DNA from: Veillonellaceae bacterium
GTDB lineage: Bacteria; Bacillota; Negativicutes; Veillonellales; Negativicoccaceae
Length of the DNA: 64,000 bases
Direction of reading: 5' to 3'
NCBI GenBank assembly: GCA_022771805.1
Contig: JALELM010000003.1
Coordinates: forward strand, 1 to 64,000
Notes under the pieces: generated by a model
The model's input: only the letters and a program-made list of their open reading frames with translations
Told to the model about the DNA's origin: nothing
Database searches by the model: none
Translations under genes and position numbers: made by a program
Part shown: one piece after another, positions 50,485 to 55,300 of the stretch
How positions within the stretch are numbered: the first letter of the stretch is position 1
Layout of the letters: every line of letters starts with the position of its first letter

Positions 50485-50513
50485 ATTTTATCACAACAAA
50501 TGCCTGTTGTCAA
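50485..50513 (-). promoter_or_regulatory. Promoter of rpoBC
   Basis: Minus strand: TTGACA (50508-50513), 17-base spacer, TAAAAT (50485-50490), only 35 bases after the stop codon of the nitrogenase-like gene. Confidence 0.85.
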
Positions 50514-50547
50514 GACGAACTCCAAACATATTCAACTGTTGCCGTTA

Positions 50548-51294
50548 TTATACACCGCCGGCGCGCATTTGGCAACCTCCGGCGTAAAACTCCCACGGCT
50601 CGCCCCACGCCGCAAGCATCCGCGCGGCAATCACTTCCCCTCGCGGACTAAGTACAATATTTTTCATCGCCTGCCGCCAATGCACCAAATCCTGCCACCG
50701 GGTACCCGCCGCACCCAAGATATAATTCACCCGTATCCCAGCCGCTTCAAGCTCGGTGCGGACTTTTTCGCACATGGCCATTTCCTCTTGATCAGAAGCG
50801 GCCACCCCGATGAGATTTACGGAGTTTGGCACTTTCTCTCTGGGAGGTATTCTCTGTTTTTTTAGCGCCGCGAGCATTGCACTTGCCCAGCCGGCATCAA
50901 ATTCTCCGCTAAACCCGCTTGCATCCGCCACTGCAACAGGAGTATCAGTAACGCTTCGGCAGATCCCTTCAACATCATCACCGACAAGTGCTGGTGCACA
51001 ATTCACCGCAACCCCTAATAGATGATCATCAGCACAAAGGTTCGCATCTTTTACCGCTGCAACCAGCTTGTTCTCGCTCCCAAAAAGCAAATCTTTTTCT
51101 GTTACAAAAGTAGAGAAAATTCTGCCGGCAGAGGCGGGATAGCTGCTGACCAGTTCCCTTGCCGTAATGGAAGCACACCACATGGGCGAATGCAAAACCA
51201 GCTTGCAATCTTCAAAGCTTAAAAAAGCGGCCGCTGCCCCTAGCAGTGCGGCGTCATCCTCCGCCATTCGCCATCGACTCAGGCTTTTATCCAT
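50548..51294 (-). CDS. Short nitrogenase component 1-like protein (NifK/N-like half)
   Basis: A 248-residue member of the nitrogenase component-1 superfamily; ATG 51292-51294 has GAGAGG upstream. HSPMWC (35-40), EKDLLFG (66-72) and CAPALVGDD (99-107) match the superfamily's N-terminal domain. The Cys40-Cys99 spacing of 59 is like NifK (95 to 153). The first ligand Cys of NifD/K is missing, though Cys30 lies nearby. The second domain (SVNLIGVAASDQEE..., 158-235) is present and the third is absent, so the protein is about half the usual length. It overlaps the preceding subunit gene by 8 bases. It may be functional or decayed; the frame shows no internal stop. Confidence 0.75.
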   Translation of the reverse strand: MDKSLSRWRMAEDDAALLGAAAAFLSFEDCKLVLHSPMWCASITARELVSSYPASAGRIFSTFVTEKDLLFGSENKLVAAVKDANLCADDHLLGVAVNCAPALVGDDVEGICRSVTDTPVAVADASGFSGEFDAGWASAMLAALKKQRIPPREKVPNSVNLIGVAASDQEEMAMCEKVRTELEAAGIRVNYILGAAGTRWQDLVHWRQAMKNIVLSPRGEVIAARMLAAWGEPWEFYAGGCQMRAGGV

Positions 51295-52537
51295 GTCGCC
51301 TCTCCATTTCCCTCTCGATATTTTGCAGCAACGCTTCATAACCACTAAATCCTACACCGGAAGGTAGCAGAATCCCGTCAACTTTCGCCAAATTGAACGG
51401 CATACTTACAAAATGATAGTCATCACTGAAAGTATCGCCTCGGTCAAAACTACACTTCGCGTCCACAACTTGTCTTTGCAACAAAGCGATCTGCTCCGCC
51501 GTAAGTCGCATATCAACCTTTATCTGTATAGCCGAAAACCCTGTTTCTTGCAGAAAAATGCACCAATCGGGCAGCAGATCGATTGCACGCGGATTCCTGA
51601 TATGAATCACACAAGATTGCCCCTGCAGCTGCGTCCTCAATTGACTCTGCTGCCGTTCTAATGCAGCCATTCTCGGCGTAATCCACTGTATGACTTGTTC
51701 CTTGCAGGCAAGCTTTTCTCCTATCGCAATGAGTTGTTTCGTACAGGCGACCGGCATTGAGTGCGTTTCCAGAAAGATACCCGGGCCATGCATCTCATTT
51801 GCCACATACCGTGCCAAACATACTGCCGCATCCCTTTTCAAGACACCTTGAGGAACAGCAAAAATCGCAAAAGCTTCTGCAAGACTTTCGTATTCCTTGC
51901 GGCTCATCTCGAATGGCGGGCAGAAAATAGTCGTAAAGCCTAATACAGAAAAAAACTCTTTCAGATCCGCATAATCCTCCGGCTGAAAATACGGAATGCT
52001 CGCTCCGAGAATCGCTACTTTGCTGCGATCCTTTTTTCCCTTTCCGACAAGAGGCAAAGTAAAGCGATCAATTAGGATGCGGTTCAGCGACAAAACCGTA
52101 TCGATCCCTTCCGGCACCATAAAACCATGACCTGGCAACACAAAAACCGGCACTTCGAATTCCCGTTCAACTTCTTGACAGACGGATTCGACATCGTCGC
52201 CAATCATTCCCGGTACACAACCCACCGCAATCAGGATATACTCCGGCCGTTTAACTGAAATGATATCCAGAAGACAAGCCCGCAGTGTCTCCAATGTACC
52301 AAAGACGGTATCTTCCTCGGTGATACCCGTGCAAAACAAATTGTCACTGCGCAGAAGCTGTTTGTTTGTTACGACCTCATATCGTTTGCTCAGTGTCTCA
52401 TACGCCCTTTTTACAATCACTGAGCAAGATCGTGTGCTATGGATCACTACAGCGGCACACGGGTTCCCCAAGGCTCCGAGAGATGCCTGCATCAAGCCGC
52501 AATGATGAATGACCCGTTTCTGTGATGTAACAATCAT
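51287..52537 (-). CDS. Nitrogenase component 1-like protein (NifD/E-like)
   Basis: A 416-residue member of the nitrogenase component-1 superfamily. Cys13, Cys38 (in HSTRSC) and Cys107 (in CVPGMIGDD) are spaced 25 and 69 apart, close to the 26 and 66 of NifD Cys62, Cys88 and Cys154 that hold the P-cluster; EEDTVFG (74-80) is the ekDivfG motif. The region matching the FeMo-cofactor Cys of NifD (here about 221-229) has no Cys, so nitrogen fixation is unlikely. It starts in an ATGA overlap with the binding-protein stop. Probably pairs with the shorter subunit downstream; a NifH-like partner is not in the window. Confidence 0.85.
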   Translation of the reverse strand: MIVTSQKRVIHHCGLMQASLGALGNPCAAVVIHSTRSCSVIVKRAYETLSKRYEVVTNKQLLRSDNLFCTGITEEDTVFGTLETLRACLLDIISVKRPEYILIAVGCVPGMIGDDVESVCQEVEREFEVPVFVLPGHGFMVPEGIDTVLSLNRILIDRFTLPLVGKGKKDRSKVAILGASIPYFQPEDYADLKEFFSVLGFTTIFCPPFEMSRKEYESLAEAFAIFAVPQGVLKRDAAVCLARYVANEMHGPGIFLETHSMPVACTKQLIAIGEKLACKEQVIQWITPRMAALERQQSQLRTQLQGQSCVIHIRNPRAIDLLPDWCIFLQETGFSAIQIKVDMRLTAEQIALLQRQVVDAKCSFDRGDTFSDDYHFVSMPFNLAKVDGILLPSGVGFSGYEALLQNIEREMERRHG

Positions 52538-53496
52538 GGTTCCTCTTTTTCATAAACCGCCTTGTACACTGCCTCAACTCCGTCAGCCACGTGATGGGAA
52601 AGACAGTTTACATATCTCTGCGGAATAATGATCGCTCGTTTCTTCTGAATCGCCTGCATTCCTGCATATGCAGGATTTGCATACATCTCCTCCAATTGCT
52701 GAGTGCTATCCTTATACTCTCCACCTTGCGACCAATTTCCCAGCAAAAGCAACTCCGGATCGGCATGCAGGAGTTCCTCTTGGTTGAGAATCATACTGAT
52801 ACCATCACCACGTAGTGAGCTCGGCCGAACCTCATCATATATGTCAATCAATCCGGCTCGTGTCATGACATCGTGATATATAGAACCTTCTCCGCCAATA
52901 GGGCCGAAACGCAAAATCAAGATCGTTCTCCATCGATTCTCCGCCGGGAGCGATGCCACTTTTTGCTTCACTGCCAGAAGCTTCTCTTCCATATCGCGGA
53001 TTAACTCTTCCGCTTTTTCCGTTTCTCCCACCGCATCTCCGATAGCTCGTATCGCACCGGGAATCTCGTCGATTCTCTTCGTGTTTTTGTGTACAAATAC
53101 ATTGATCCCGACCTCTTCCAAGGTCTCCGCCATTCCCGCTTGGCCTTCCCTAAGAATGACTAGGTCAGGAGAGAGAGAGATGATGTACTCCGCACTGTCA
53201 CCTACCACATTGACAACGTCTTTTGCTTCTTCCACTGCGCTGGAAAGTCCCGGGTCATGCACCCATTTATCCAGTCCTACGATACGGTCATGCGTTACCA
53301 AATCTAAGAGGATTTCATCAGCAAAAACATAGTTGCATATGATTCTTTGGGGCTTACCGTTCATATGCAATACTTTTCCTCGGCTATCCGTAATGGTATA
53401 GGAAGATGTCTTGCCCTCTTCCCTGCCGGTATTCGCACACCCAAGCAAACATATACAACAAATCAGAACGGCAAGCAACGCATATACTTTTCTCAT
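52534..53496 (-). CDS. ABC-type metal-complex-binding lipoprotein (FecB/BtuF-like)
   Basis: A 320-residue class III substrate-binding protein. The signal MRKVYALLAVLICCICLLGC has a lipobox with Cys20. Typical segments: YTITDSRGKVLHMNGKPQRIICNYVFADEIL, then LSPDLVILREGQ, LEEVGINVFV and the long connecting helix IGDAVGETEKAEELIRDMEEKL. Such proteins bind ferric siderophores, heme or cobalamin. ATG 53494-53496 is 16 bases after the receptor stop and lacks a clear ribosome site, so it probably relies on translational coupling; a TTG start at 53529 is less likely. No permease or ATPase gene follows. Confidence 0.88.
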   Translation of the reverse strand: MRKVYALLAVLICCICLLGCANTGREEGKTSSYTITDSRGKVLHMNGKPQRIICNYVFADEILLDLVTHDRIVGLDKWVHDPGLSSAVEEAKDVVNVVGDSAEYIISLSPDLVILREGQAGMAETLEEVGINVFVHKNTKRIDEIPGAIRAIGDAVGETEKAEELIRDMEEKLLAVKQKVASLPAENRWRTILILRFGPIGGEGSIYHDVMTRAGLIDIYDEVRPSSLRGDGISMILNQEELLHADPELLLLGNWSQGGEYKDSTQQLEEMYANPAYAGMQAIQKKRAIIIPQRYVNCLSHHVADGVEAVYKAVYEKEEP

Positions 53497-53512
53497 CGAT
53501 TTTGACCAAACA

Positions 53513-55300
53513 TCAGAAGCGATGCTCAAATGTCAGCAGCCAGTTTCTTTCCGGAAGGATTGAACCGGTCGGCCCCGTTGCCGACGAGGATCGAATATCA
53601 TCCCGGTCAAGCAAATTGTATACATAGAGATGCATACTATCCGCGTCCGAAAGCTTTCTGCTGACGGAGAAGTCTATGTTCAGTAAAGGATCCACATTCT
53701 GGCGAAGTCCCATGTAATTGAAATTCAAGTGTGCCTGCGTCAAGTCATCTTTATAACCGATTCCCCAGTTCATACCGAGTTTGTAATCGACACGAGTCCA
53801 TTTTCCCGTCGCTACGGTTTTTTGCTGCGGATTAGCATATGAAACGCCCACATTGTAAACGAACTTTTTCGCCGGGCTACTTTCATAACTCAATTCAATG
53901 CCGGTATTCTTGTAAGAGTTCGCATTGAAATATTTGGAAAGGCCGCTCGGCATCTTCTTACTGTAGATTCGATCCTTAATATCCATATGAAAAATATCGA
54001 ATCTTAAATAATCTTGATTCCTCAAAATCTTTTTCCAGCCGATCTCATAATTCCACCCGTTCTCCGCCTTCAGGTCCGGATTCATTTCTTGTGTCGCCGT
54101 ACCCCATTGTTCATTTACCATAGGTACTCGCATCGACCGGTTAATGTTGAGATAATAAGAATCATCGGAGCCGGGAGTATACAAAAGTTGCAACTGAGGA
54201 AGGAATTTGCTTCCGGATTTTTCTACATAAGCTTCTCTTGCACCGACCAGAAGATTCCATTGCTCGTTCAGCTTGCTATTTGTCATGAAAAAAACAGCAG
54301 CGCTGTCTCTTTTGGCAGCTGGAATCGAACCGGAGTTCTGCGTGCTTTCTTTTTCATACTCAATGCCTGCCGTCAATTCGGTTTCCCCAAAACCCCAACG
54401 ATTTTGCAGGTTCAACCCGTAATTAGTCCCTTTTTGATGCGTTGTCGTGTTGAATTTCCAATCTCTGCTTCTAAAATAGATCGCACCGAGCAAGTCTCCC
54501 TCAGAATAATGCAACTGTGCGAAATTATATTTGATCACGCTATGAAATCCCGGCGCTATACTTCCATTAGGATACTTCATGGACATGTCTGTCGAGCGCT
54601 CTGTGTGCATATACTGAAAAAGCAATTGATCTGTCAGCGCATATTGCACATTGAGACTGTCTTTTTTCTGTTTATCACCAATATAAGAATATCGTGTGCT
54701 CCGATAGCTTTCACCAAAATTTCTTGCTTGGTTGTGGTTATAACTTATAACCAATTTATCCAATCCGAGCTCCAAACTGCCGGTCAGCTTATGTTGGTCA
54801 CCTCCACCCAAAATAAGCTTTGACTCATTGGCCGACTTCTTCGTAATGATATTGATAACACCGGCCATAGCGCTGGAACCGTACAGTACTGCAGAGCCAC
54901 CTTTTACCACTTCGATTCGGTCAATCGTATTCGACGAAATTGACTCCAGATCGTAATTCCCGTCCTGCGCCAAAGGAATGCCGTTTACTAGAATCGCCGT
55001 ATAATTTCTATTTTGTCCGCGAAAGCCCACATATTGATTTCCCGTTGGAGAAGCCGTAAAAGAAAAGCCCGGGATATTGCGAACCACTTCCATCACATTT
55101 TGTGCACCCAACTGCTGAATTTTTTCCTGATCATAAACCTCTGTTGAGGCCGGGATTTTCAGGTCCGGCGTTTGGTACTTTGTTGCCGATACCAAAATCG
55201 GATTCAATTGATATACTTTTTGCGCAGCCGCTTCGCCCTGTCCTCCCAACAGTGCGGTAAACAATACTCCTCCCAGTAAAATATGCACCTTTCTATTCAT
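53513..55300 (-). CDS. TonB-dependent receptor, first gene of nitrogenase-like operon
   Basis: A 595-residue outer-membrane receptor. ATG 55298-55300 has GAAGGG upstream and gives a clean signal peptide (to about residue 26, GGQGEAAAQ). The plug (about 30-150) contains ILVSATKYQTPDLKIPASTEVYD, VVRNIPGFSFT, YVGFRGQNRNYTAILVNGIPLA and VVKGGSAVLYGSSAMAGVINII. The barrel ends LLTFEHRF. This resembles BtuB/heme/vitamin-type receptors, shorter than siderophore receptors such as the one at 4299-6416. Base composition of this and the next three genes is clearly more AT-rich than the surroundings. Confidence 0.9.
   Translation of the reverse strand: MNRKVHILLGGVLFTALLGGQGEAAAQKVYQLNPILVSATKYQTPDLKIPASTEVYDQEKIQQLGAQNVMEVVRNIPGFSFTASPTGNQYVGFRGQNRNYTAILVNGIPLAQDGNYDLESISSNTIDRIEVVKGGSAVLYGSSAMAGVINIITKKSANESKLILGGGDQHKLTGSLELGLDKLVISYNHNQARNFGESYRSTRYSYIGDKQKKDSLNVQYALTDQLLFQYMHTERSTDMSMKYPNGSIAPGFHSVIKYNFAQLHYSEGDLLGAIYFRSRDWKFNTTTHQKGTNYGLNLQNRWGFGETELTAGIEYEKESTQNSGSIPAAKRDSAAVFFMTNSKLNEQWNLLVGAREAYVEKSGSKFLPQLQLLYTPGSDDSYYLNINRSMRVPMVNEQWGTATQEMNPDLKAENGWNYEIGWKKILRNQDYLRFDIFHMDIKDRIYSKKMPSGLSKYFNANSYKNTGIELSYESSPAKKFVYNVGVSYANPQQKTVATGKWTRVDYKLGMNWGIGYKDDLTQAHLNFNYMGLRQNVDPLLNIDFSVSRKLSDADSMHLYVYNLLDRDDIRSSSATGPTGSILPERNWLLTFEHRF

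Follow-up and report, generated by a model that had tools for sequence, protein, structure and literature searches.

Two-component relatives of nitrogenase that lack the iron-molybdenum (FeMo) cofactor, among them DPOR, COR and CfbCD, reduce tetrapyrroles by means of ATP and iron-sulfur clusters (PMC7242693). Group IV nitrogenase-like pairs encoded beside ABC transporters were described by Dos Santos et al. (2012), whose survey also reports NflD adjoining cobyrinate a,c-diamide synthase and suggests a role in cobalamin reduction (PMC3464626). During aerobic cobalamin synthesis, CobNST inserts cobalt and the flavin-dependent CobR then reduces Co(II) to Co(I) (PMC7242693). The subject of this report is an operon of four minus-strand genes at positions 50548-55300 of a 64,000-nucleotide stretch of DNA, hereafter the window, from a Veillonellaceae bacterium (contig JALELM010000003.1, assembly GCA_022771805.1). 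Its genes encode a TonB-dependent outer-membrane receptor, a substrate-binding lipoprotein and two proteins resembling nitrogenase component 1, which are called D and K (Table 1). Relatives of these genes in gut and oral bacteria sit in B12-controlled clusters that serve the uptake of corrinoids and the handling of metals, and they suggest an undescribed nitrogenase-type reductase in B12 scavenging. For the operon itself, there is about an even chance that it is an accessory copy of a corrinoid scavenging system of the Negativicutes in which D-K reduces the corrinoid at the expense of ATP. It is this wider family system, and not the probably impaired copy in the window, that is the object of interest.

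The order TonB receptor-binding protein-D-K recurs in Megamonas UBA1799 (locus L101), in metagenome-assembled genomes (MAGs) of Phascolarctobacterium (L098 and L099), in genome G104 (L104), in a Lachnospiraceae MAG (L115) and, with a second binding protein, in a Selenomonadales MAG (L102). Locus L096 holds binding protein-D-K at a contig edge. The D proteins of these loci, including that of the window, form one clade with support of 100/100. Because the gene order recurs in other Negativicutes and the D proteins form a single clade, the gene set is beyond chance. The window receptor is 41% identical over 581 amino acids to the receptor of the corresponding Megamonas operon, and the lipoprotein is 53% identical over 280 amino acids to that of L101 and 44% over 311 amino acids to that of L096; D and K share 36% and 41% identity with their counterparts at L096. 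A NifH homologue is present in all genomes checked (G000, G142, G086, G104, RUG097, UBA1799 and RGIG3840). Genes for ChlI/ChlD and for CbiZ, an adenosylcobinamide amidohydrolase, flank the operons of L102 and L104. The window-type D-K pair of G142 (L097) adjoins CobN and CbiZ, and close to these a cobalamin riboswitch (105 bits) lies ahead of ChlI-ChlD-NifH. Cobalamin riboswitches also lie directly upstream of nifH in the uncultured sister genus G001 (95 bits), Anaerospora (118 bits), Sporomusa ovata (113 bits) and Phascolarctobacterium faecium (102 bits). A riboswitch motif scan, which found most of the Rfam hits and missed some, was used as support only.

The genome of the window was surveyed through searches and selected stretches of an assembly that is about 95% complete, so that absences from it are not absolute. 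Its sole NifH-like protein lies on contig C6 (380 bits in one search; 403 bits against the nifH cut-off of 394 in another). The protein has the P-loop GKGGIGKS and cysteines in GVGCAGRG and DVVCGGF, as expected of a NifH-like partner, and it may dock with the window D-K. The surrounding cluster, hereafter the second cluster, is larger than the window operon and includes two CobN-type chelatases and a BtuFCD-like transporter. It begins with TonB receptor-H-D-K-CobN-FecCD permease-ABC ATPase-radical SAM-ChlI-ChlD and continues with binding lipoprotein-CobN-TIM barrel-CbiZ-ExbB/TonB-CbiK-CbiL-CbiA-BtuR, where CbiL, CbiA, BtuR and ExbB are named from their translations. Each of the four window proteins has a distant paralogue in it. 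The C6 receptor scores best with a B12 receptor model (125 bits) and the ATPase with a corrinoid ATPase model (291 bits), both below cut-off. The first CobN passes the CobN equivalog (826 bits against a cut-off of 822) and is adjoined by ChlI/ChlD-like genes. In these respects the cluster resembles a class I cobaltochelatase of the CobN-ChlI/ChlD kind; unlike that system, it is accompanied by a nitrogenase-like reductase and by a pathway of the CbiK type. An earlier note on this DNA, made from its letters, had advised looking for a NifH-like reductase, for an ABC permease and ATPase, and for transport genes beside the homologues. The first two are found together on C6, and transport and nitrogenase-like genes co-occur in the relatives. 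Neither of the outcomes that the earlier note held to speak against a reductase, homologues without transport genes or genomes without NifH, was found; the reductase role therefore stands for the family and is doubtful for this copy.

Among 43 loci of a second type, related to the second cluster (each at least 16 kb), the genes near D-K include CobN in 28, ChlI in 22, CbiZ in 21, a permease in 26, a binding protein in 29 and a TonB receptor in 23; the loci share ancestry, and these counts are thus not independent events. None of the six gene kinds occurs in five loci belonging to other, more distant D clades.

Table 1. Features of the operon and of the adjoining rpoB region, in window coordinates.
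Feature	Positions	Strand	Details
TonB-dependent outer-membrane receptor	53513..55300	-	595 amino acids from ATG 55300; Plug and TonB_dep_Rec barrel (Pfam)
FecB/BtuF-type substrate-binding lipoprotein	52534..53496	-	320 amino acids, lipobox LLGC, start ATG 53496; Peripla_BP_2 90 bits
D, nitrogenase component-1-like D/E-type subunit	51287..52537	-	416 amino acids, start ATG 52537; PF00148 97 bits
K, nitrogenase component-1-like K/N-type subunit, 3'-truncated	50548..51294	-	248 amino acids, start ATG 51294; PF00148 109 bits
Promoter-like element TTGCCA-N17-TATAAT, rpoB region	50547..50575	-	read from sequence; recurs upstream of rpoB in G001, G002 and G003
Second rpoB promoter-like element TTGACA-N17-TAAAAT	50485..50513	-	family-conserved (alignment of rpoB upstream regions)

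The strand and the Pfam domains bear out the four kinds of gene that the first inspection had proposed. Of the overlaps it reported, those between lipoprotein and D (4 bases) and between D and K (8 bases) hold with the likely starts, but a gap of 16 bases separates the receptor gene from that of the lipoprotein, and the two would overlap only if translation of the lipoprotein began at the TTG at 53529. The receptor frame is open to 55342, and its likely start precedes a signal peptide. D and K score far above the cut-off of 28.6 bits for Oxidored_nitro (PF00148), which places them in the nitrogenase component 1 superfamily. Within it, profile scores assign the pair to no named nitrogenase-like family: no equivalog cut-off was reached for NifD, NifK, Anf or Vnf (at most 51 bits against 427 or more), NifE (68 and 56 against 505), NifN (24 for K against 327), BchB (45 for K against 490) or CfbD (40 and 24 against 268). 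The cluster-type cysteines of D (C13, C38 and C107) are invariant in 14 relatives. K keeps two of three (C57 and C116 in alignment numbering), the first being absent there and in its nearest relative, L096. The NifD/E and NifK/N cysteine spacing noted previously is thus complete in D and partial in K. In the profile alignment, D has no cysteine opposite the GFCYTLST motif of MarD, whose cysteine we take to be the cofactor-binding one (NifD Cys275 type), so that the FeMo-cofactor-type cysteine is absent. No NifB match was obtained in the genome search.

The AlphaFold model of D (predicted local distance difference test score, pLDDT, 83) finds its best Protein Data Bank (PDB) match in the methylthio-alkane reductase subunit MarD (9d9u, E 2e-16). 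The model of the truncated K (pLDDT 82) comprises the first two Rossmann domains only and matches best DPOR BchB, with a template modelling (TM) score of 0.74. MarHDK (PDB 9d9u and 9fmg), which has the NifHDK-type architecture, is the nearest solved relative of D by profile and fold; Mar, however, has nitrogenase metalloclusters (PMC12552129), whereas NifB and the cofactor cysteine are absent here and the neighborhood differs. The likeness to BchLNB and CfbCD lies in the fold of K and in cluster cysteines without the cofactor cysteine, and, as for the bacteriochlorophyll pathway, a class I chelatase is encoded alongside the relatives' genes. In contrast to both, the pair falls far under the BchB and CfbD cut-offs and is linked in the family to uptake genes and B12 riboswitches, and no chlorophyll or F430 context was seen. 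The consulted portion of the Group IV survey does not mention a TonB receptor, CobN-ChlID, CbiZ or cobalamin riboswitches (PMC3464626). The heme de-chelatase operon of HmuS shares a TonB receptor and a CobN-family protein with the clusters described here, but its description mentions no nitrogenase-like genes and HmuS works without ATP (PMC12583661), while ChlI/ChlD and CbiZ are present here. In the open-access literature, whose coverage makes this a weak negative, no report was found of cobalamin riboswitches that control NifHDK-like genes or of such genes together with CobN-ChlID-CbiZ, nor of the exact gene set of the operon, as the earlier note had surmised. This suggests that the B12-regulated NifHDK-CobN-CbiZ system is an undescribed variant among nitrogenase-like systems.

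The best reading of the substrate is a tetrapyrrole. The earlier note had left the choice among a metallophore, heme and a corrinoid; the corrinoid is favored because the relatives carry CbiZ, CobN-ChlI-ChlD, BtuCD homologues and cobalamin riboswitches, and the other two are disfavored. The data show the gene content, the conserved order, the D clade, the NifH and chelatase context and the B12 riboswitches before nifH in relatives; ligand, reaction and the sharing of NifH are what we infer. The receptor and lipoprotein would capture a corrinoid and hand it to a BtuCD-type permease encoded elsewhere. An intact D-K, to which the lone NifH-like protein would deliver electrons and ATP, would then act like DPOR or CfbCD in a corrinoid reduction of very low potential. 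The likeliest reaction would act on corrinoids that have been imported, trimmed by CbiZ and metallated or remetallated by CobN-ChlI-ChlD, and would reduce either their central cobalt or their ring; such a reduction would let BtuR adenosylate them. Where aerobic synthesis has CobR reduce Co(II) to Co(I), a nitrogenase-like reductase encoded beside CobN-ChlID could make this low-potential reduction on salvaged corrinoids, or could act on the ring. Release of the metal, which had been suggested as a possible outcome of the reaction, is unsupported. Nor is the operon self-contained: it holds neither NifH nor a permease, and K is truncated. In the window copy, ligand capture is probably retained, and reductase activity of its own may be lost; alternatively, D may use the second cluster's K.

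More tentatively, with chances that fall well short of even, these genes may represent a new nitrogenase-like branch in Negativicutes of the gut, rumen and mouth, devoted to corrinoid reduction within a salvage system that is controlled by B12 riboswitches and includes trimming by CbiZ and de- or remetallation by CobN-ChlID. If so, this would be the first known nitrogenase-type enzyme to act on corrinoids from outside the cell, and corrinoid chemistry would join the repertoire of ATP-driven nitrogenase-type reductases. It would also provide a candidate low-potential corrinoid reductase in strict anaerobes and an unusual strategy by which gut, rumen and oral Negativicutes compete for B12. Many nitrogenase-like genes have no known substrate, and a cobalamin riboswitch directly before nifH in cultured bacteria offers a testable substrate class.

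The window copy itself is another matter, for its K is truncated, which the earlier note had overlooked. K has 248-265 amino acids compared with about 430-465 in relatives, so that some 180 residues are missing, and its PF00148 match covers only profile positions 2-220 of 399, short of a full-length, three-domain K. Its stop codon falls inside the -10 hexamer of the TTGCCA-N17-TATAAT element, which also lies upstream of rpoB in G001, G002 and G003 of the same family, where no K gene is present. A naturally short form of K is ruled out by the full length of all relatives and by the position of the stop within this rpoB-upstream promoter element. A tblastn search downstream for a frame-shifted remnant of the end of K found none. 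The receptor gene has a GC content of 0.44 compared with 0.57 for the window, and the GC content at third codon positions is 0.48-0.51 across the operon compared with 0.72-0.77 in most neighboring genes. Sister genera lack the operon and have different genes upstream of rpoB. Given this absence and its low GC content, the operon looks acquired, and the plain reading is that the end of its last gene was lost at the junction. In the sister genus represented by G002 and G003, a TonB receptor, a binding protein and a ChuW/HutW-like radical SAM protein (337 bits, below the cut-off of 400) are encoded near rpoB (L216 1846-6423; L217 1371-5951). Because of this set, it looks as though uptake cassettes come and go upstream of rpoB.

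It comes close to an even chance that the operon is a decaying acquisition, transferred horizontally to a place beside rpoB, in which K has lost its end, D-K forms no enzyme and function is left, at most, in the receptor and the lipoprotein. The missing residues, the stop within a conserved promoter-like element, the deviating GC content at third codon positions, the absence from sister genera and an in-frame stop in D of the nearest relative, L096, all favor decay, and the reductase half may be dead in this genome. On the other hand, none of the four frames is interrupted, the overlap of D and K is of the kind expected with translational coupling, the cluster cysteines of D and two of those in K are intact, the similarity of D and K to L096 is about that of the lipoprotein, and a two-domain fold is predicted with confidence even for the truncated K. 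That fold, which resembles BchB, could allow K an active partner role, and D could instead combine with the second cluster's K. Decay concerns this copy and is compatible with corrinoid scavenging by the family.

Other substrates were weighed against a corrinoid. The ligand of the window receptor is not assignable from its scores with NCBIfam models: 119 bits for siderophore, 117 for hemin and 91-94 for B12, all under their cut-offs. It is unlikely that heme is what the receptor imports and that its reduction by D-K aids iron removal, as an anaerobic counterpart of HmuS or ChuW. The hemin score, a match of the lipoprotein to the IsdE model (40 bits, below cut-off), the HutW-like gene set near rpoB in the sister genus and the removal of iron from heme by HmuS, a CobN homologue (PMC12583661), agree with this idea; yet every score lies under its curated cut-off, and the relatives carry cobalamin riboswitches, CbiZ and BtuCD-like genes. 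Furthermore, the putative partners of CobN here are the ChlI/ChlD ATPases encoded next to it, while HmuS needs no ATP (PMC12583661). Heme de-chelation of the HmuS type as the main role is disfavored by these partners together with the B12 riboswitches. Capture of a ferric siderophore or other metal complex, with release of the metal by reduction, is quite improbable. The siderophore model is the top NCBIfam match of the receptor, and coupling of metal transport to cofactor assembly is suggested in the Group IV survey for nitrogenase-like genes beside ABC transporters (PMC3464626), but no siderophore pointer occurs in the clusters, and the B12 regulation and CbiZ point elsewhere. A slighter chance still is given to reduction of a small sulfur compound or assembly of a metallocluster, as in MarHDK or NifEN: MarD and NifE are the nearest solved structures by sequence and fold, but NifB was not found in the genome, the cofactor-binding cysteine of NifD and MarD has no counterpart in the profile alignment and no sulfur-metabolism neighbors were seen.

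Several observations weigh against corrinoid reduction as proposed here. Siderophore and hemin models give the window receptor equal scores, K is truncated, the branch of the window D is long (2.09 compared with 0.75 for its sister L096) and D of L096 is interrupted. In seven of the 43 second-type loci, the neighborhood contains neither transport nor chelatase genes. No RF00174 cobalamin riboswitch was detected in or near the window operon at the gathering or a relaxed threshold, which speaks against control of this operon itself by such a riboswitch. Finally, a further cbi cluster on C6 contains a confirmed CbiC and frames read as CbiD, E, T, F, G, H and J. The organism thus probably makes cobalamin de novo by a pathway that has a CbiJ-like reductase, as read from its open reading frame, and no step obviously missing. 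The CbiJ-like frame also rules out replacement of a missing CbiJ as the role of the nitrogenase-like pair.

Some further features of the relatives' clusters may be recorded. At L104 (7192-8013 and 5357-6298) and L102 (14169-15146), D-K and NifH have carbon-nitrogen hydrolase genes as neighbors, whose products are perhaps amidases that act on corrinoid side chains. MerR-type regulators adjoin nitrogenase-like operons in three genomes (L101 13510-14364, L097 16212-17072 and L047 8303-9427). Anaerospora hongkongensis (L116) has five cobalamin riboswitches within 12 kb, several of them before unassigned genes. Extra K-like frames and several riboswitch-like motifs in the Pelosinus clusters (L162, L163 and L170) suggest an expanded system. 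A third family of the order, probably Megasphaera, carries two NifHDK-like sets separated by about 8 kb, in which proteins of about 800 amino acids and others are encoded (L050-L056); these double loci are a different, more distant nitrogenase-like group. Cobalamin riboswitches also precede the operon of methylmalonyl-CoA mutase, a B12-dependent enzyme, in G000 (L008 1129-1302) and G001 (L042 682-851), an arrangement that is unusual if the switch represses.

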